Shown one piece after another: positions 39,192 to 60,995 of a DNA stretch of 64,000 bases; position 1 is the first letter of the stretch, and each line of letters opens with the position of its first letter. The notes beneath the pieces are model-generated. The model saw only the letters and a program-made list of their open reading frames with translations, was not told where the DNA came from and did not search any database. Made by a program: the position numbers and the translations under genes. The stretch is from Idiomarina fontislapidosi (GTDB lineage: Bacteria > Pseudomonadota > Gammaproteobacteria > Enterobacterales > Alteromonadaceae), in NCBI RefSeq assembly GCF_003226255.1, contig NZ_QJST01000004.1, positions 124,001 to 188,000 on the forward strand, given 5' to 3'.

Positions 39192-40553
39192 ATGATGGCT
39201 GAGCTGTCCGATAAAGAATACGCAATGCAGCGTATTCAAGAGGTTAATACTGCCCTGTCGGACGGTATGTATGTGGCTGCACGACGCATGCTGCATAATA
39301 TGCCCGCCTGTGATATTGCGCTGCTGCTTGAGTCATCACCGCCCAAAAGTCGTGCTATTGTCTGGAAGCTCGTCGATGCCGATGAACACGGTGATATCCT
39401 AGAAGAGCTCTCTGAAGAAGTTCAAAAGTCCATCATTCGTCAAATGGCGCCGGAGAAACTCGCCGCTGCGACTGAAGGTATGGACACGGATGACCTCGCC
39501 TACGTTCTTCGTGGTCTGCCCGATCAGGTTTATCAAGAAGTACTTAAGTCGATGGATGAGCGCGACCGAGAGCGCGCAGAAACAGCTTTGTCTTATGACG
39601 AGGATTCCGCCGGCGGTATCATGAACACGGATACCATCACCGTACGTGCCGATGTGACCGTTGATGTTGTATTGCGCTACCTGCGTTTAAAAGGTGAGCT
39701 GCCAGAGGCAACGGATAAACTGTACGTGGCGGATCGTAACGACAAACTGATTGGCGAAATTGCGTTATCACGTTTAGTCACCGTCGATCCATCCAAAGTT
39801 GTCAGCGACATTATGTCACCGGATATCGTCAGTATTCCAGTCGATATGGACGAAACCGAAGTCGCGAAATTATTTGAGCGCCATGACTGGGTGTCGGCGC
39901 CCGTGGTCGACGCCGATCAACAGTTAGTCGGTCGTATCACCATCGATGATGTGGTCGATATCATCCGTGAAGACGCACAACACTCGATGTTAAGCATGGC
40001 CGGTTTAGAAGATGATGAAGATACCTTCGCACCGGTATTAAAGAGTACACGCCGCCGTACCGTGTGGCTTGCCATTAACCTCGTCACTGCATTGCTCGCG
40101 GCAATGGTCAGCTCGCTGTTCGAAGATGTACTGGCACAAATGGCGGTGCTCGCAATATTGAATACCATCGTACCCAGTATGGGCGGTATCGCCGGTAGCC
40201 AGACGCTTACCTTGGTTATTCGTGGTATGGCACTCGGTCATATCGGTAGCAGTAACTCGCGTTGGCTAATCGGTAAGGAGCTCGCGATTGGTGCGCTCAA
40301 CGGTGTGATTTGGTCAGTATTGATTGCCGCCGTGGTGGCGCTGTGGATGCAAAGCTGGTTAGTCGGCGGAATCATCGCCTTTGCCATGATGATGAACTTA
40401 CTTGCCGCTTCGTTGGCAGGGGTCACCGTACCAATGATACTGAAGCGCTTTGACATTGATCCTGCACTGGCAGGCGGCGTGATTTTGACTACGGTCACCG
40501 ACGTGGTCGGTATTTTCGCATTCTTAGGTACTGCGACATTGCTGCTTTCTTAA
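39192..40553 (+). CDS. mgtE: MgtE-type magnesium channel
   Basis: A 453-residue MgtE: a cytosolic N-domain of helical repeats (about 10-135), two CBS domains (about 140-265), and five membrane helices in the C-terminal third containing the pore stretch NTIVPSMGGIAGSQTLTL. Magnesium binding to the cytosolic part closes the channel. It follows ptsO by 2 bases and is the last gene of the plus-strand cluster; a 14-bp hairpin spans its stop. Confidence 0.95.
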   Translation: MMAELSDKEYAMQRIQEVNTALSDGMYVAARRMLHNMPACDIALLLESSPPKSRAIVWKLVDADEHGDILEELSEEVQKSIIRQMAPEKLAAATEGMDTDDLAYVLRGLPDQVYQEVLKSMDERDRERAETALSYDEDSAGGIMNTDTITVRADVTVDVVLRYLRLKGELPEATDKLYVADRNDKLIGEIALSRLVTVDPSKVVSDIMSPDIVSIPVDMDETEVAKLFERHDWVSAPVVDADQQLVGRITIDDVVDIIREDAQHSMLSMAGLEDDEDTFAPVLKSTRRRTVWLAINLVTALLAAMVSSLFEDVLAQMAVLAILNTIVPSMGGIAGSQTLTLVIRGMALGHIGSSNSRWLIGKELAIGALNGVIWSVLIAAVVALWMQSWLVGGIIAFAMMMNLLAASLAGVTVPMILKRFDIDPALAGGVILTTVTDVVGIFAFLGTATLLLS

Positions 40554-40565
40554 GCAGCAATGTCG
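40534..40565. terminator. Hairpin between convergent mgtE and pmbA
   Basis: A perfect 14-bp stem CGACATTGCTGCTT / AAGCAGCAATGTCG with a TCTT loop overlapping the mgtE stop. Neither strand has a T run after it, so termination by this hairpin alone is uncertain; it may instead protect transcript ends. Confidence 0.5.
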
Positions 40566-53170: not shown

Positions 53171-55060
53171 TTACTGCGCTCGTACTACCCGAAACCCAAT
53201 ATAATTAGAGCTAAAATTAGCAGGAAGTTCCATGCGCGTTGAAACGCGCGCCAAACTGGGTGCAAAGTTCCATGCTCCACCACGCACCACTTGACCCTCC
53301 TCGGTACGTGCCCACTCCCAAACATTACCCACAGTATCAAACAAGCCCCATGGGTTCCGCTCGAACTGAGCTACGGGTGCTGAGCGATCGTTTGACCATT
53401 CAGAACCACAGTGGCGACAGTTGGCATTATTAACACCGACATCATTGCCCCACCAAAAATCCGTTTCTGTGCCAGCGCGCGACGCATATTCCCACTGCTG
53501 CTCAGAGGGGATATCGTAATCGAAACCGCTTTTGTCTGACAACCAATCAGTATACGCCTTTACATCTTCATAACTAATACAAACAACAGGTGAGTTTTCA
53601 GTCTGTTGGAAACCTGGATTACGCCAATTTAACGTGCCATCCATTTTTGGCATGCCATTTACCAAATTTGCGCAATTACCATTTTTCTCAGCTTGCGTGA
53701 CATAGGCCGTGTCATTTACGAAGTCACGAAACTTTCCCACGGTCACCTCGGTATCACTGATACCAAACGGGGCTTCAATAGTCACTGTTTGCACAGGGCG
53801 TTCATTTGGCAGCCCGTTACCCGTTAAATCGCCCATTTTATAGTTGCCAGATGGGACAACGACCAACTCAGGGCCGCGCACATCACGGAATAAGATATCT
53901 TGTACCTTTTCGCCGCGCGTAAACGAATAGTCTGACTTTTCGAGCTCTGCACGAATCGATTGCGCATCATTAAGACGAATCACATCGCTGTAAGAACTGT
54001 AACCGTATTTACGCACTTCAACACGGTGGTCGCCACGGGGAAGCATTATCTCGATAGGTGTTGAGCCATAACTTACACCGTCAATTAATACTTCGTCGTC
54101 ATATACGTTTGAACGTAATGTCAACGGGTGCATCACCGCATCGTTACTTGCGCCCACGTTAGCGCTTGTTTGCGTTGCACTGCGTTGGTCAGCATTTTCT
54201 ACGACACAATAACGTGCATCGACTTCAAGGAGCTGACAGGCTTGGCGACGAGGTAACTGACCGCGTAACTCGACGGCAATTTTAACGCCATAGTTACCTT
54301 GGCCGCTGAATCCATTACTGACTGTCTTTGAGCCTAAAATTTGTACATTTGGACTCACTTGCTCTAGATTGCTTCGCGCCTGCTCAGCCTCGCTGAGGTT
54401 ACTTACGATTTGGTCAAGGTATTGCTTTGATGCTTTTTGCTTTGCCAACAACTTGCCGCGCGTTTCACACTGGCTCAGCGTTTCTTCACGGTCACAGACG
54501 ATAGACTGACTTACTTCTAGCTCGCCAGTCTGATTAAATTCACGTTCTAAGCGTTCGACTCGCGCTACTTTGCGCTGATCTTTGAGCGATTCAATCTCGT
54601 TTAACAGCGCATGGCGACTTACGCGTCCCTCTTCAACTTCTTGTTGTTTTTCTTCAACCAGTTGAATCTGTGTACCAATATCTTTTTTGTTTTGCTGATG
54701 CGCCATCACGGCTTCTTTATAAGCTTGCTGCGCCCCCGCGATATCAATCGTCGGATCGTCTACCAGTTGTTGATAGCGGTTGTTCATTTCTTGCAGCGCG
54801 GTCTGACGTTGTTTCTCTAACGTCTGGTTGCGATCTCGCAAAGAAGCTAGCTTTTGCTCCAGTTGTTCAGCTTCGTCTTTTAGACGTTGCACCGTTTGCG
54901 TGTAGTTATCGTACTCATTTTGCAAACTCGTGATCTTGTCGGAGATCTGCTCCACCGTCATTGATTGTTGCTGCTCTTGCAGAGCAGCAACAATCAATGA
55001 CGGTGGAGCGATTGTCAAAGTCGAGGCCATCACTAGGGCCAATTGAGCCAGTCGCATCAT
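53171..55060 (-). CDS. Secreted coiled-coil / PEGA / SUMF1-fold protein
   Basis: A 629-residue exported protein with no known function that I can assign. Domains in order: a signal-peptide-like N-terminus (1-27), a long coiled coil (about 37-235), a short cysteine-containing domain (about 240-290), a PEGA surface domain (322-372, VLIDGVSYGSTPIEI), and a SUMF1/FGE-sulfatase fold (398-628, with WGLFDTVGNVWEW and IGFRVVRAQ). The SUMF1 fold lacks the two C-terminal cysteines that catalyse formylglycine formation: after GGAW (594-597) there is none. Only C463, C494, C548 and C551 are present, so formylglycine synthesis is unlikely and a structural or binding role is favoured. It lies between mshQ and mreB, a place where msh and mre genes are usually neighbours. 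The signal-peptide region contains a 29-bp perfect inverted repeat. Confidence 0.85.
   Translation of the reverse strand: MMRLAQLALVMASTLTIAPPSLIVAALQEQQQSMTVEQISDKITSLQNEYDNYTQTVQRLKDEAEQLEQKLASLRDRNQTLEKQRQTALQEMNNRYQQLVDDPTIDIAGAQQAYKEAVMAHQQNKKDIGTQIQLVEEKQQEVEEGRVSRHALLNEIESLKDQRKVARVERLEREFNQTGELEVSQSIVCDREETLSQCETRGKLLAKQKASKQYLDQIVSNLSEAEQARSNLEQVSPNVQILGSKTVSNGFSGQGNYGVKIAVELRGQLPRRQACQLLEVDARYCVVENADQRSATQTSANVGASNDAVMHPLTLRSNVYDDEVLIDGVSYGSTPIEIMLPRGDHRVEVRKYGYSSYSDVIRLNDAQSIRAELEKSDYSFTRGEKVQDILFRDVRGPELVVVPSGNYKMGDLTGNGLPNERPVQTVTIEAPFGISDTEVTVGKFRDFVNDTAYVTQAEKNGNCANLVNGMPKMDGTLNWRNPGFQQTENSPVVCISYEDVKAYTDWLSDKSGFDYDIPSEQQWEYASRAGTETDFWWGNDVGVNNANCRHCGSEWSNDRSAPVAQFERNPWGLFDTVGNVWEWARTEEGQVVRGGAWNFAPSLARVSTRMELPANFSSNYIGFRVVRAQ
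54949..55009. repeat. Perfect 29-bp inverted repeat inside the SUMF1 gene
   Basis: Arms 54949-54977 and 54981-55009 are exact reverse complements separated by only 3 bases (TGC). In the protein the arms encode residues 18-27 (APPSLIVAAL) and 28-37 (EQQQSMTVEQ), so one of the two peptides is the antisense translation of the other. The reading frame stays open through both arms. The transcript would form a very stable hairpin about 50 bases after the start codon. Confidence 0.95.
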
Positions 55061-55254
55061 GTTCCCATTCCAAGCTTGAAAATAATAAAGCGGTAGAGGC
55101 CTTGCAGCCTTACCAGCGCTCTTTATTTGAATATTTATTGGTAAACGTCGTTAACGTCGCGCATGTATAACAACTCTGCCTTATGCTATTTGCTTGTCAA
55201 CAAAAGCGCAAGGAAGAATCGCGGTAAATTCCGTACAATTGAGTAAGTAGCCAC
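55061..55254 (-). promoter_or_regulatory. Intergenic region with possible promoter of the SUMF1 gene
   Basis: On the minus strand a perfect TTGACA (55195-55200) is present, but the correctly spaced -10 is poor; an extended -10 TGTTATACAT nearby (TATACA at 55164-55169) is an alternative without a good -35. Two direct repeats of AACGTCG 9 bases apart (55144-55150, 55153-55159) also form an imperfect palindrome around GTTAAC. No terminator hairpin is evident after mshQ. Confidence 0.35.
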
Positions 55255-58200
55255 TCACAGCCCCTGCTCTTGCCAATAGATTTGGCGGTCGCTGCCGCGG
55301 TAGATACCAAAAACGCCGAGCGCGGTTGGGTTTTCGTTATATGACCCATCGCCAGTCCAGTCGTACTGTAGGTAGGCGGGAACATCCAAATCAAATTCAA
55401 ACTGTACGGGTTGATTCGATGGTTCCCAGCGCAAGCTTTCCTCATCGCTACGTTCCACCGACTGAATTCGGCCCTGATCCACTATCACTTGGTTGTTACT
55501 ACTGCCTTCGATATCACCACGTTCAAGATCAATAGAGGGCGCCTCTTCGCCTTCCTCGACAACGTAACGTTCATCTGAAACCGCACTGTGAGCGACTGAA
55601 TAGCATGTGTTATTTTCATCCAGTCGATATTCGGTTCCATCCCAAAACTCAACTTGCCCTTGAATGAGGAGTGGGTCACTGACTGCGGCGATGACATTTT
55701 CAAGCACCATCCGTCCGAAGACTAAACGTGCTGAATCAAACAACTTATAATCTACAGCGTAGTCATCACCGGCCGGCGCCGGCAGGGTGGTGTCCTTCAA
55801 TTGACTGTAATATTGATTGTTCTCACCATCGTTGATGCGTATACCCAGTTTGTAATCGTTATACGGTCCTTCCTCAGCGTCGCTACGCAGGTATTTAACC
55901 TCGACATTACTGAGAAACCCATTCCCTGCGTTGGCTGTTGTAGCATCACTCCAGTCGATAGGACTAATAGGAGCGGAACCCCCGCCGTTTGGCGTCACTT
56001 GCAAATTAAACGACTGGCCATTGACGTTAAACGCTGCAAACTCCAGTTCCGCTTTTGCCAAATCACTTGCATAATTGCGAGTGATATCACCGCTCGCGTT
56101 TCGTGCCACGAGTTGGATAGGTAGCAAGTTTTGTGGCTCACCAATGTAATACGAGGGTTGCGCTCCACAGGTATTTGCAAAGCCAGTGCCCGCCTCAAGC
56201 GTAAAGTGGTGCGGAATGAATCGACCGACTTCAAATTGTGTTTCGAGTACGTCGCTAGTATCTTGCCACTGAGATAGATACCCGCCGCCATTCTGTTGGG
56301 CTACTTGTGCTGTAATATTAGCTTTACCGACTTCAGAGTAGGTTACTTGGTTATTGGTAAAGGTGCCGAAGTCCGAGCGAGAAAATTGCAGCGCATTAGC
56401 CAGCACCCCATCATTAACTGCCACAGGCGCAACCGCTTCGGCTGCGGTTTGAAGCACGAGTCGTTCACCTACCTGTTCCAAACCAAAGTTAGGCGTAATG
56501 TCACCTTGCGCATTACGTGCCGTTAGCTCGACCTCAAACGGGTCGCCTGCCTTAGCTAAAATCGCAGTCGAGCTTGATAAGTCGGTATCTAACCGCGTTG
56601 ATTTCATCTCAATATGGTGCGGTTGCCAAACAAAGGTGTTTGAATCGCCCCGCAGCGTCACACCGTTACTCAACGTTGCTTTCGCCGAAAGCTTCACCGC
56701 GCCTACATCATCATAACGCATCGCTAGATTCGCTCTACTGTCATTAAATTCAACCGCTACATTTTGATAGTTTCCCGCAATTAAGTCGGTTGCATTTGCA
56801 GCCGTAAGCTCGGAGCCCACTTGGCCGCTTACCCAAAACTCGCTTTCTGAACGACATTGGTTTGGATCCACGCAGTCCAACTGCATTTCAATTTGCGTTA
56901 AGTTATTTGTCAGCGCTTGACACTGCAGTGTATTGGTGTTCGTTTCTACGGCACGAATTGAAACACCTTCAGATTGTATTCCCGCCGTTTGCCGTGGTAT
57001 TTGCGTGCTCTGTAAACCCGCATCATAAAACACAAACCCAGCATTGCTTATTGCGATTTGGCAATCATCGACCACGCCATCCACTAAGCACACTGTTGGA
57101 TTGGCAGGCTGTGGCGCACTTTGATTAGTTACCGATAGATTCGTAACGCCCGCTTGCGTTGGATTTAACTGACTGAGTAACTGGTTATTGGCAGCCGACC
57201 AATTAAGTGATGATGGTGCAAAACTGCCGTTATCCGAAGCCAGTTGAATAGAAGCTGTGTCACCATATGTTTCTGAGCAATCCGCATTAGCGCACGCTTT
57301 AACCGCTACTTCGGCTCCATTACAAAGCACCGCATTTTGATTAAACGCAAGCTGATAGTGATGCAGACGTTCTTCAGAAGGTTCACCAGGAACCGAACAA
57401 ACCGAGAGATCTTTGATCCAATGGTAATTTGTTTCGCCGCCTGTACTGCCCGTGAAACTTAAATACACTTGTTCAGGCATCTGCGGCTGATTTTGCAGAT
57501 TATCTAATTTTAGGATGCTCTCAAAATTATTATTCGCACCGTTTTCGTCCAACTTACGCAGTACCTCGATACTTGGGTTATCACCTGTTCCATCGATCAA
57601 TACCTTGTATGTATGTCCCGGTTTAGGGTTAAAAACAGAGTTTGGATTTTGGTTTGCTGGCGAATCAATTGCCGGTTCAAGTTCATTTGAGGCGCCTAAG
57701 AACTGGTAATTCGTTGAGTCAGCCCCACGAACGCCAACCCGGTTAGGAACCAGTCGATCAAACCCGCCGGCTCGTCCCTCGCTGTTGCGCGAGAAGTTTC
57801 CGTACTCATCAAAACCGATACCAAGCCAGCCGGCTTCAAAACCACCTGAGTCACCAGTGCGTTGAGCATAGCCTAACGAGCCACCATAACTACCCGCTCG
57901 TGGATTACCGTCACTAATACGGTTGGCGTCAGAGAGTACAAGCGCTATTCCATCAGCACCGGTGTTGCCTCGTCCATTAGAGCCCCACGCGTATAATTTG
58001 AATTCAATTTCTATGCGGTGACCTTTACCTGGGAATGGCCGCTGCAATGTCACCGCTGTAGCACGGTTGTTGGCGTTATCGGTTAGTTCTAGATATTGCT
58101 CGTTACGAGCGGTCAGTAACTGAGGCTGGTAGTTGCTATCTTTTGAATAGGTTTTCCAGTCGTTGCCGAAAACTTGCCCTTCATCATTTATCGCGTAACA

Positions 58201-60585
58201 CTGCTGGCCTTGACCTAAACACTCGTGTCGAAGCGTTTGTAATGACGATGCTTGGCTGTCAGAAAGATAATCGTGATATAGCCTGAATTCATCGACAGCC
58301 CCCTCGAGGTATCGATTTCCGTCATTGCCTTTGTCTGCACCTATTCTTAACGCGTCGTTATTGACCACCAAAGTATCGGTATAACTAAACGATAGCTTTT
58401 GTTCGCCATCGATCCATAACGACTGTCGTCCTAAACTATAACGCGCAACAAAGAAATGCCACTGGCCATCGGCAAAACTCTGCTGAGTAAAGTTAGAGCG
58501 AACCCCTTTATTACCCTGCCACCACCAATTTATTGTACCTTGAGGGGTAACATGAAGTTCAAAATTTTCATCTTTACCCACCAGTGTCGCAAGCCCACTT
58601 CGAGGCGCTCTATCAATACGCGCCCAAAATGCAATGGTATACTCGTTAGCACGGTCGAGCGACGTATCATCCATAATTTCGATATAGTGCTGGCTTGCTG
58701 CTGAGAAGGTAGCGTAGCCACAGGTCCCCATGAATTGTTGATTCGTTGCCAACGCCGGTGAACCATCGGCGGCACCAAACCCAACACCATTACGCGCGGT
58801 GATCGAGAGGCTTTCGGTACCTTTATTGCTGATAGCAAATCCATTGCTTGCATTCCATGGACCATCATCAAAAGGCAAATAGACTTGCGCAGGTGGCAAG
58901 TTGACAGCAGGTGCTGCGCAAAAATTACCGCCTTCTATCGGATTGCTGAACGCCGAGTAGTTAACACGATAGTTAGAGCCCTGGATATCGTCGCCGGCAC
59001 TGATGGCGCCATTAATAACGATGAGTGGACCATTATTTGAAAAATTAATATCGTCTTCGGCATAAATGTAACCGTTAATTGTTACGCCTGCGCTAATCGA
59101 CAAATCACCCGTTACTATCAATATAAAGTCTTCAGGGTTGCCATTGGGGTTTAATGTCACACCCGGTTGTATATTGAGATCACCATCAATGTACACACGC
59201 GAACTGGCACCACTCGTTTGATACTCTTCTCCTACAGCATCAAAATCCCCCACACGCAAATAGTCTTCGTTACTGAGTTCACGAGGTAAGCTTCTGTTGT
59301 AAGCTTGTCCTGGTAAATCATAACGCTCGGGGGTCGTGCTATTCTCATTAACGCCCGACGGCCATATGGCACTGCATTGTTCAAGATCGACCGGCGCCTC
59401 GGAACAGGGACCATAATTGTTATTAATGTCGCATAGTTCGCCCAATACTTTAGGCGGTGATTCATTGACGAAGTCATTAAAATTAGGCGTATTAAGGTAA
59501 CCATTAATTTTACTTCGTTGCTCGAGTTTAACAGAGTCACGTGAATTGACGTTACCTTTGACAAGCGCTTGGTAAGCTAATGAAATTTCATCGTTCGCGT
59601 CTAAGCTACCACCGACTTCGGTTTCCTGACCTAGTTTAATCTTCTTTTCGGCATCAATATTTTTATCAACTTTGGTTCGAAACCCCGTTTTGACCTCACC
59701 ATTTCGCGCGTTCACATCACCGAATATGTGTGATTCTTGTTCTAAGTCGATGTCGCGTCGAGCAAGCAAACTCCCTTTGACTTCTGTTCTGAAGTCAATT
59801 TTTATCTTTCCGTCATCGCTCGTAACGTCGCCCTGTACTTCAGAGTCTTGCCCAACCTCTATATCTTTTTGCGCCCGAATATCGCCACCCAGGGTTACGC
59901 GCTGACCTACCTTAATTTTGTCATCACTGTCTAAGAACTCCGACACCGTAGCTCGGCTACCAATCTCGATATCTTCTGACGATTGGATATAGCCATTAAT
60001 AGTGCTCGAGTCGCCAATTTTTACCTTCTTTGCGCTATCAATGTAGCCAGCGATGGTGACATTATTTTCGGTTTCGACTTTCCCTTGCGACTCGATATAA
60101 CCGCTAACTTGAGCATTTCCACCGATTTTTACCTCATCGCTCGCTTCGACGTAACCATCAATCATGGCCGCATAGCCCACCTGGACTTTTCCAGCGTTTA
60201 CAACGTCACCAGCAATAACTGCTTCATTATTCATTTCGACTGAACCGGCTCCATAAACACTACCACTCAAAGCGGCTTTATAGTCGAGATTTAAATCACC
60301 ACCGTTGGGAAATTCCACACGGAAATTAACGTTGTTATTGTTTAGTAGGCGGCTTTCATTAGCTAAACTTAGATCGCCATACATCACCAGTCTCACATTG
60401 ACATCGGCGGTATAACTATCGCGGTAATTTAAATTGATATCATCGAAACAGGTAACTGTCAGTTCATCATAGCTACCATCGTACGTTTGAGAACACGCAT
60501 CGAACACATTTTGTTGAGCAAAGACGGGTGGTGAGAATAAGCACTGAGTAACCACTAACAGGCCTAGTTTTATTAACCATCTCAT
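55255..60585 (-). CDS. mshQ: MshQ, giant MSHA pilus-associated protein with lectin-like domains
   Basis: A 1776-residue exported protein, last gene of the MSHA pilin operon. Domains in order: signal peptide (about 1-23), a repetitive bactofilin-like beta-solenoid of about 15 units of 18 residues (98-366), a second short stretch of the same kind (about 460-530), a LamG/concanavalin-like domain (about 567-790), an L-type-lectin-like domain (about 790-1066, with GADGIALVL and IGFDEYGNF), and a long MshQ/DUF6701-type C-terminal region (about 1090-1776). It is probably surface-exposed and carried by the pilus; glycan binding is inference. The ATG at 60585 overlaps the mshP stop as ATGA. Confidence 0.88.
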   Translation of the reverse strand: MRWLIKLGLLVVTQCLFSPPVFAQQNVFDACSQTYDGSYDELTVTCFDDINLNYRDSYTADVNVRLVMYGDLSLANESRLLNNNNVNFRVEFPNGGDLNLDYKAALSGSVYGAGSVEMNNEAVIAGDVVNAGKVQVGYAAMIDGYVEASDEVKIGGNAQVSGYIESQGKVETENNVTIAGYIDSAKKVKIGDSSTINGYIQSSEDIEIGSRATVSEFLDSDDKIKVGQRVTLGGDIRAQKDIEVGQDSEVQGDVTSDDGKIKIDFRTEVKGSLLARRDIDLEQESHIFGDVNARNGEVKTGFRTKVDKNIDAEKKIKLGQETEVGGSLDANDEISLAYQALVKGNVNSRDSVKLEQRSKINGYLNTPNFNDFVNESPPKVLGELCDINNNYGPCSEAPVDLEQCSAIWPSGVNENSTTPERYDLPGQAYNRSLPRELSNEDYLRVGDFDAVGEEYQTSGASSRVYIDGDLNIQPGVTLNPNGNPEDFILIVTGDLSISAGVTINGYIYAEDDINFSNNGPLIVINGAISAGDDIQGSNYRVNYSAFSNPIEGGNFCAAPAVNLPPAQVYLPFDDGPWNASNGFAISNKGTESLSITARNGVGFGAADGSPALATNQQFMGTCGYATFSAASQHYIEIMDDTSLDRANEYTIAFWARIDRAPRSGLATLVGKDENFELHVTPQGTINWWWQGNKGVRSNFTQQSFADGQWHFFVARYSLGRQSLWIDGEQKLSFSYTDTLVVNNDALRIGADKGNDGNRYLEGAVDEFRLYHDYLSDSQASSLQTLRHECLGQGQQCYAINDEGQVFGNDWKTYSKDSNYQPQLLTARNEQYLELTDNANNRATAVTLQRPFPGKGHRIEIEFKLYAWGSNGRGNTGADGIALVLSDANRISDGNPRAGSYGGSLGYAQRTGDSGGFEAGWLGIGFDEYGNFSRNSEGRAGGFDRLVPNRVGVRGADSTNYQFLGASNELEPAIDSPANQNPNSVFNPKPGHTYKVLIDGTGDNPSIEVLRKLDENGANNNFESILKLDNLQNQPQMPEQVYLSFTGSTGGETNYHWIKDLSVCSVPGEPSEERLHHYQLAFNQNAVLCNGAEVAVKACANADCSETYGDTASIQLASDNGSFAPSSLNWSAANNQLLSQLNPTQAGVTNLSVTNQSAPQPANPTVCLVDGVVDDCQIAISNAGFVFYDAGLQSTQIPRQTAGIQSEGVSIRAVETNTNTLQCQALTNNLTQIEMQLDCVDPNQCRSESEFWVSGQVGSELTAANATDLIAGNYQNVAVEFNDSRANLAMRYDDVGAVKLSAKATLSNGVTLRGDSNTFVWQPHHIEMKSTRLDTDLSSSTAILAKAGDPFEVELTARNAQGDITPNFGLEQVGERLVLQTAAEAVAPVAVNDGVLANALQFSRSDFGTFTNNQVTYSEVGKANITAQVAQQNGGGYLSQWQDTSDVLETQFEVGRFIPHHFTLEAGTGFANTCGAQPSYYIGEPQNLLPIQLVARNASGDITRNYASDLAKAELEFAAFNVNGQSFNLQVTPNGGGSAPISPIDWSDATTANAGNGFLSNVEVKYLRSDAEEGPYNDYKLGIRINDGENNQYYSQLKDTTLPAPAGDDYAVDYKLFDSARLVFGRMVLENVIAAVSDPLLIQGQVEFWDGTEYRLDENNTCYSVAHSAVSDERYVVEEGEEAPSIDLERGDIEGSSNNQVIVDQGRIQSVERSDEESLRWEPSNQPVQFEFDLDVPAYLQYDWTGDGSYNENPTALGVFGIYRGSDRQIYWQEQGL
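59488..60294 (-). repeat. Eighteen-residue tandem repeats in MshQ (about 15 copies)
   Basis: Degenerate protein repeats of the form V/I-x-V/I-G-x4-V-x-G-x-I-x5, e.g. VKIGGNAQVSGYIESQGK followed by VETENNVTIAGYIDSAKK. Two copies have 19 residues. The hydrophobic and glycine periodicity fits a right-handed beta-solenoid like that of bactofilins. DNA identity between copies is low, so the repeat is old. Confidence 0.75.
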
Positions 60586-60995
60586 TCTATTGTCCTCGCT
60601 TCCATGGCTAGCACGCGCGCAGTTGTTTGCGAGCCTACGGTGCATTGACCCGTGGCTACAAGTCGATAATGTTCATCAGACGCGTAAGTGTCGCTACTAC
60701 ACGCTATATCAACTTTGCAGTTCTGCAGACCTTCGGCATTCGTGAAATCCATACTACTTTGCACGGCAGAACAACTTTGCATCTCACTGTCTAACGGAAA
60801 AAGCTGATTCATCCCCTGCTGCAAACCACTTTGTGCGGCGTTAAATGCGCGCGTGCCATACACTTCCGTGACAACACTATCGCTACTGGTGCGCACAAGG
60901 GTTGCCAGGGTTGCCACTAATAAGCCGGTTACCACTATCACAAAAATAGCAACAACAAGCGCACTGCCGCGTTGTGCATGATAACTATGGCGCAT
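60582..60995 (-). CDS. mshP: MshP, PilX-like minor pilus assembly protein
   Basis: A 137-residue protein with an N-terminal GSALVVAIFVIVVTGLL hydrophobic helix similar to PilX-type minor pilins, preceded by a short basic leader. The start at 60995 overlaps the mshO end by 11 bases; a longer frame to 61034 would lie inside mshO. Its stop overlaps mshQ. Confidence 0.85.
   Translation of the reverse strand: MRHSYHAQRGSALVVAIFVIVVTGLLVATLATLVRTSSDSVVTEVYGTRAFNAAQSGLQQGMNQLFPLDSEMQSCSAVQSSMDFTNAEGLQNCKVDIACSSDTYASDEHYRLVATGQCTVGSQTTARVLAMEARTIE

Follow-up and report, generated by a model that had tools for sequence, protein, structure and literature searches.

A perfect 29-bp inverted repeat at a signal-peptide junction in Idiomarina fontislapidosi, the probable scar of a replication template switch

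The window analysed here, a 64,000-nt stretch of an Idiomarina fontislapidosi contig, contains a gene for an exported protein in which the end of the signal peptide and the start of the mature protein are encoded by exact reverse complements of the same sequence. We interpret this site as having arisen through a single, short switch of template during replication, of the type known as quasipalindrome correction, and assign this interpretation a probability of about 0.88. While the mechanism is well known, the instance is unusually long and clear. In this natural bacterial example the arms measure 29 bp, three relatives still show the precursor, the direction of change is evident and the gene is intact, and one replication slip would have turned five residues into eight at once.

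The inverted repeat and its host gene

The two arms are complementary at 29 of 29 positions and, with the 3-nt spacer, the whole repeat spans 61 bp (Table 1). Counted from the ATG at position 55060, the left arm occupies nucleotides 52-80 and the right arm nucleotides 84-112 of the coding sequence. A preliminary description of this DNA had reported a perfect 29-bp inverted repeat with a 3-base spacer and a frame open across both arms; both observations hold, the 629-aa reading frame (55060-53171) being uninterrupted. The residues it gave for the left arm (18-27) were likewise correct, while those given for the right arm (28-37) fall one codon short.

Table 1. Positions in the window of the host gene and the elements of the inverted repeat.
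Feature	Position	Strand	Description
Host gene	53171..55060	-	629 aa, exported, PEGA + FGE-sulfatase domains
Right arm (gene orientation)	54949..54977	-	29 nt, codons 28-38, start of mature protein
Spacer	54978..54980	-	GCA in gene orientation
Left arm (gene orientation)	54981..55009	-	29 nt, codons 18-27, end of signal peptide
Inner stem GCTCT-GCA-AGAGC	54973..54985	-	Pre-existing quasipalindrome core (alignment of relatives)

The next longest perfect repeat on the 219,579-base contig that contains the window has 16-bp arms (spacer of up to 20), while Markov versions of this contig (first-order, n = 3) yielded perfect arms of 11 bp at most, and the 29-bp repeat is therefore not attributable to chance. 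Over another 400,000 bases of this genome the perfect arms reach 14 bp at most, and scans of 220,000 bases of Idiomarina sp. MD25a and 80,000 bases of the MAG CPC14 (Idiomarinaceae) returned maxima of 15 and 13 bp, respectively. The preliminary description had called such a perfect foldback rare, and the 619,579 bases of the I. fontislapidosi genome that were scanned, corresponding to 22% of the 2,860,583 bases of a 45-contig draft assembly, contain none of comparable size besides this one. Several of the other long perfect repeats resemble terminators (A-run, stem, T-run). A relaxed search (22-nt arms, up to 3 mismatches, spacer of up to 12) added two sites in the 619,579 bases, one of which is terminator-like. 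A near-perfect inverted repeat with 22-nt arms, two mismatches and a 12-nt spacer is located on contig C5 of this genome (48668-48723). Furthermore, a hairpin at 40534-40565 of the window has arms of 14 and a spacer of 4 nt, while its apparent counterparts in MD25a and CPC14 have arms of 12, a spacer of 10 nt and different inner letters; it may reflect a further quasipalindrome change on a smaller scale.

The host protein contains an FGE-sulfatase (SUMF1-like) domain (residues 396-627; Pfam; E: 1.4e-49) and a PEGA domain (residues 313-375; Pfam; E: 1.2e-13), and judged by eye its N-terminus is a signal peptide. An apparent coiled-coil region is suggested by weak SMC/Rad50/PspA-type NCBIfam matches, all nine NCBIfam matches to the protein being below their respective cut-offs. 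Orthologs of the gene are present in all nineteen Idiomarina genomes compared. The protein shares 599 of 624 aligned residues with its MD25a ortholog, whereas the two genes disagree at 126 of 262 comparable four-fold sites, indicating that the protein is constrained. In I. baltica OS145, the ortholog is found in two pieces on opposite strands of contig C4, approximately 29 kb apart (at ~87.0 and 116.5 kb); runs of N adjoin the breaks, and a scaffolding error in the draft is a more probable cause than a real inversion. The neighbouring gene in I. fontislapidosi (55255-60645, minus strand) codes for a 1796-aa protein with bactofilin-like, laminin-G-like and DUF6701 domains, which we take to be MshQ-like.

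The imperfect precursor in related genomes

The start of the gene was aligned across nineteen Idiomarina genomes, including that of I. fontislapidosi and with one genome per species, and two outgroups. The preliminary description had proposed such an ortholog alignment as the way to recognize the ancestral arm, and had noted that both arms in all orthologs would mean an old and conserved repeat. This is not what the alignment revealed: the 29-nt left arm and its extra 9 nt are absent from 18/18 other Idiomarina genomes, the derived long-arm state being restricted to one of the nineteen.

In the three nearest relatives, namely MD25a (G009), CPC14 (G013) and I. baltica OS145 (G018), the site is instead occupied by a quasipalindrome, in which a 5-bp inner stem (GCTCT/AGAGC) and outer 11-nt stretches matching at 8/11 positions are separated by unequal single strands. 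The order in these relatives, in gene orientation, is GCTTCGCCGGC, 4 nt, GCTCT, GCA (ACA in CPC14), AGAGC and the right arm. The inner stem is paired in the predicted folds of all three (90-nt stretch; MD25a and CPC14: -23.7 kcal/mol; OS145: -27.8 kcal/mol), which show the expected imperfect precursor hairpin.

The I. fontislapidosi right arm is identical to those of MD25a, CPC14 and OS145 at 28/29, 28/29 and 26/29 positions, respectively. By comparison, its left arm matches MD25a at 14/29 positions in the best ungapped direct alignment and, where a 9-nt gap is allowed, at 15 of 20 MD25a letters, but is the reverse complement of the MD25a right arm at 28/29 positions, against a maximum of 19/29 reached in 5,000 letter-shuffles of the arm. 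On the basis of these alignments, the arm on the side of the mature protein is ancestral and that in the signal peptide is new. The ancestor is represented here by relatives which show 14-17% nucleotide difference over the gene's initial 765 nt, rather than by a reconstruction, and as such its letters and the switch points are inferred. One right-arm letter that distinguishes I. fontislapidosi from the three close relatives is found in both of its arms, and this change therefore either preceded the copying or was re-copied later. The spacer letters are those of MD25a and OS145, and there is thus no sign of loop inversion.

A 26-nt pattern spanning the middle of the repeat, composed of 8 left-arm nt, the spacer and 15 right-arm nt, occurs, with up to 3 mismatches allowed, in one of 395 family genomes, that of I. 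fontislapidosi, with the MD25a form lying four differences away, so that the pattern barely separates the two forms.

Template switching and the alternative origins

The left side of the hairpin has changed from 20 nt, as in MD25a, into a 29-nt perfect reverse complement of the right side, with a net in-frame gain of 9 nt. Read linearly, the left arms of the two genomes differ by five substitutions and a 9-nt insertion (counted by eye). One switch, atop one earlier right-arm substitution, explains all of the left-arm differences. The marks of quasipalindrome correction are found together at this site: an imperfect ancestor, as represented by the three nearest relatives, precedes a perfect derived repeat; the changes are limited to one arm, where they read as the reverse complement of the other; the derived state is confined to a single lineage; and microhomology is present at both ends, with GCTCT/AGAGC (5 nt) at the inner and AGC, within the 8-of-11 match, at the outer switch point (by eye). 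The inner stem GCTCT/AGAGC is the probable inner switch point. The precursor, the direction of change, the replacement of one arm and the two-end microhomology can be seen in the aligned sequences, and from these we infer the replication switch itself.

In the proposed mechanism, a nascent strand would switch template at the hairpin, copy the opposite arm and return to its own template at the far AGC. Two paths may be envisaged, which leave an identical product. In the intramolecular path, the nascent antisense strand would fold back at GCTCT/AGAGC, copy itself and return at AGC, while in the intermolecular path the nascent sense strand would cross the fork at AGC to the sister template and return at GCTCT. 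The plus strand GC skew over the contig is -0.056, and the gene strand would consequently be the leading strand if the usual skew rule holds. A leading-strand intermolecular switch is reportedly the subject of a 1997 paper by Rosche, going by its title. Several studies report a strand bias for quasipalindrome mutations, according to PMC7202029. The leading-strand placement and this bias fit the intermolecular path without proving it. The gene would have survived the event because the gain of 9 nt keeps the frame and the frame used is free of stops.

The preliminary description suggested that a template switch had recently rewritten the signal peptide at its end, which agrees with the long arm being absent from the 18 congeners and with the precursor in the three nearest. 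A fresh duplication-inversion does not apply, since 20 nt of an imperfect arm that was already present gave way to 29 nt. The identity of the arms is only a rough sign that the switch was recent, the probability of zero differences in 58 arm positions being 0.004 at the age of the split from MD25a, 0.063 at half and 0.33 at a fifth of that age, with a divergence of 0.095 per lineage, arm sites taken as average and later re-homogenisation ignored.

Reverse-complement copying was also searched for between the I. fontislapidosi contig and MD25a (198,254 aligned columns; mean identity: 81%; four settings), in a contig that was picked for holding the site, so that the scan gives no unbiased rate. 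At the three stricter settings nothing but the palindrome site was recovered, while the loosest (20 nt, 2 mismatches) added two hits that overlap each other in one terminator-like hairpin (contig position 79342-79375). Neither the controls (reverse and complement-only) nor copying in the opposite direction yielded an event, whichever of the four settings was used.

A predisposition of this genome through the loss of hairpin nucleases was considered and is unsupported, as family matches to ExoI and SbcD, the two nucleases searched for, are present. ExoI (PF08411) is matched in all nineteen Idiomarina genomes. SbcD (TIGR00619) is matched in seven, namely I. fontislapidosi, its three nearest relatives and genomes G001, G004 and G006, with the other twelve having no match, a distribution which looks like clade-wise loss or divergence. 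With no other repeat of comparable size in the scanned 22% of the genome, nothing marks it as event-prone.

It is improbable that an in-vitro template foldback, arising in assembly, amplification or library preparation, entered the contig. Perfect short-loop foldbacks are a known in-vitro product and the assembly is a draft in 45 contigs, both of which speak for such an artefact. A foldback, however, normally continues into reverse complement, whereas here orthologous sequence resumes on both sides of the repeat. Exactly one side of a pre-existing quasipalindrome has been replaced, with the frame (+9) and a plausible cleavage site kept, and the lack of any repeat of similar size in 619,579 of the 2,860,583 bases argues that foldbacks are no general defect of the scanned part. 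The artefact, which the preliminary description had set beside the template switch as an alternative, is accordingly weighed below it, with a small probability left to it.

The probability that a mobile palindrome, such as an RPE, REP or MITE, was inserted in frame is negligible. In-frame palindromic insertions within genes are known in Rickettsia, but an RPE is by definition a dispersed, multicopy unit inserted in unrelated genes, and a search of the I. fontislapidosi genome with 701 bases around the site recovered this locus only, in both orientations. Furthermore, the right arm was already part of the ancestral gene, the alignment with relatives displays neither a target-site duplication nor sequence beyond the copied arm, and the centre pattern occurs in no other of the 395 family genomes. 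A Rickettsia-type RPE was therefore rejected on the grounds of the single locus and the unique centre pattern.

Quasipalindrome-associated template-switch mutations are detected with the Escherichia coli lacZ QP5/QP6 reporters, which involve an 18-bp quasipalindrome and a 4-bp frameshift (PMC7202029, which cites a 1982 PNAS paper (Ripley) and the 1997 paper by Rosche). As in these reporters, an imperfect repeat would have been perfected in one replication event through the gain or loss of unpaired letters of one arm, while the 29-bp arms and the 9-nt gain are natural rather than laboratory products and affect a gene on the chromosome of a marine bacterium. In coding genes of Saccharomyces cerevisiae, template-switch arms of 7-16 bp are described for 68 genes, of which 30 are significant by simulation, with up to five neighbouring amino-acid replacements (PMC8604942). 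The Idiomarina site shares with these the homogenisation of arms inside a gene, several amino-acid changes at once and polarisation by relatives, but differs in its longer arms and its in-frame length change from five residues to eight.

Numerous coding palindromes of up to 284 bp are found in the mitochondria of Nematomorpha, for which template switching is discussed as a possible cause (PMC6649704). They too are perfect inverted repeats across which the coding frame stays open, but in their number and mitochondrial location they contrast with the single 61-bp repeat in the 619,579 bases scanned here in a bacterium. A single template switch may also create a perfect stem in RNA genes (PMC8794818); there the stem is functional, whereas the Idiomarina host is a protein gene and its stem probably a by-product. 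Perfect inverted repeats with arms of at least 10 bp have been counted across 118,019 genomes (PMC13155455), and long perfect repeats as such are therefore not new. Among the matches listed in a search of open-licence papers, neither this site nor a template-switch case in a bacterial signal peptide is described. A long, polarised and in-frame case at a bacterial signal-peptide junction did not come up in the literature searched. Read as ordinary substitutions, such a site would mimic a burst of positive selection together with an indel.

Consequences for the signal peptide and the mRNA

The change would convert the signal peptide MMRLAQLALVMASTLTIASPAYA|LQEQQQ into MMRLAQLALVMASTLTIAPPSLIVAA|LQEQQQ, where the bars mark putative cleavage sites placed by the (-3,-1) rule. 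At the junction, IASPAYA|LQE becomes IAPPSLIVAA|LQE, with the five residues SPAYA replaced by the eight residues PPSLIVAA. The stretch ahead of the bar remains hydrophobic. Signal peptidase would thus cut after V-A-A in place of A-Y-A, leaving the mature start LQEQQQ unchanged, and it is plausible from the residues present that a cleavage motif was retained after the switch. That a single switch in a natural lineage replaced the end of the signal peptide, with three added residues, a new h/c region and a new -3/-1 motif, while leaving the mature protein unchanged, is a tentative and rather doubtful proposal. If true, quasipalindromes at signal-peptide/mature junctions, where constraint is loose, could recurrently remodel exported proteins by template switching, and the mRNA stem of 29 bp could introduce a pause, or a site for RNase III, as the signal peptide emerges.

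The preliminary description had expected the mRNA hairpin, as lying near the start codon, to affect translation strongly. For initiation this is unsupported, since the stem begins at nucleotide 52 of the coding sequence, past the initiation footprint (which extends to about +15 to +20), and no loss of accessibility is predicted for nucleotides -20 to +15 (I. fontislapidosi: 0.458; MD25a: 0.368; CPC14: 0.368; OS145: 0.403). Control of initiation by the hairpin was rejected on this comparison with the three relatives. An effect on elongation or RNase III cleavage is possible from the modelled stem.

Selection for the hairpin as a functional RNA element, such as an attenuator, an RNase III site or a translational pause, is very improbable. 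The predicted stem is strong (-57.3 kcal/mol; z = -13.6) and a weaker hairpin is also present in the relatives, both of which speak for such an element. The perfect form is, however, found in only one of the nineteen Idiomarina species, no U-run follows 3' of the stem, and recent copying fully explains the identity of the arms. An intrinsic terminator was likewise rejected, the sequence 3' of the stem in gene orientation, AGATCTCCGAC, containing no T-run. The hairpin left by the template switch probably has no regulatory role, being a by-product that is neutral or tolerated.

A 69-aa reading frame on the plus strand (54961-55170) has a start that resembles the N-terminus of the host protein itself (MIVAALAEQQQSMTVE), and is probably a by-product of the palindrome rather than a gene.
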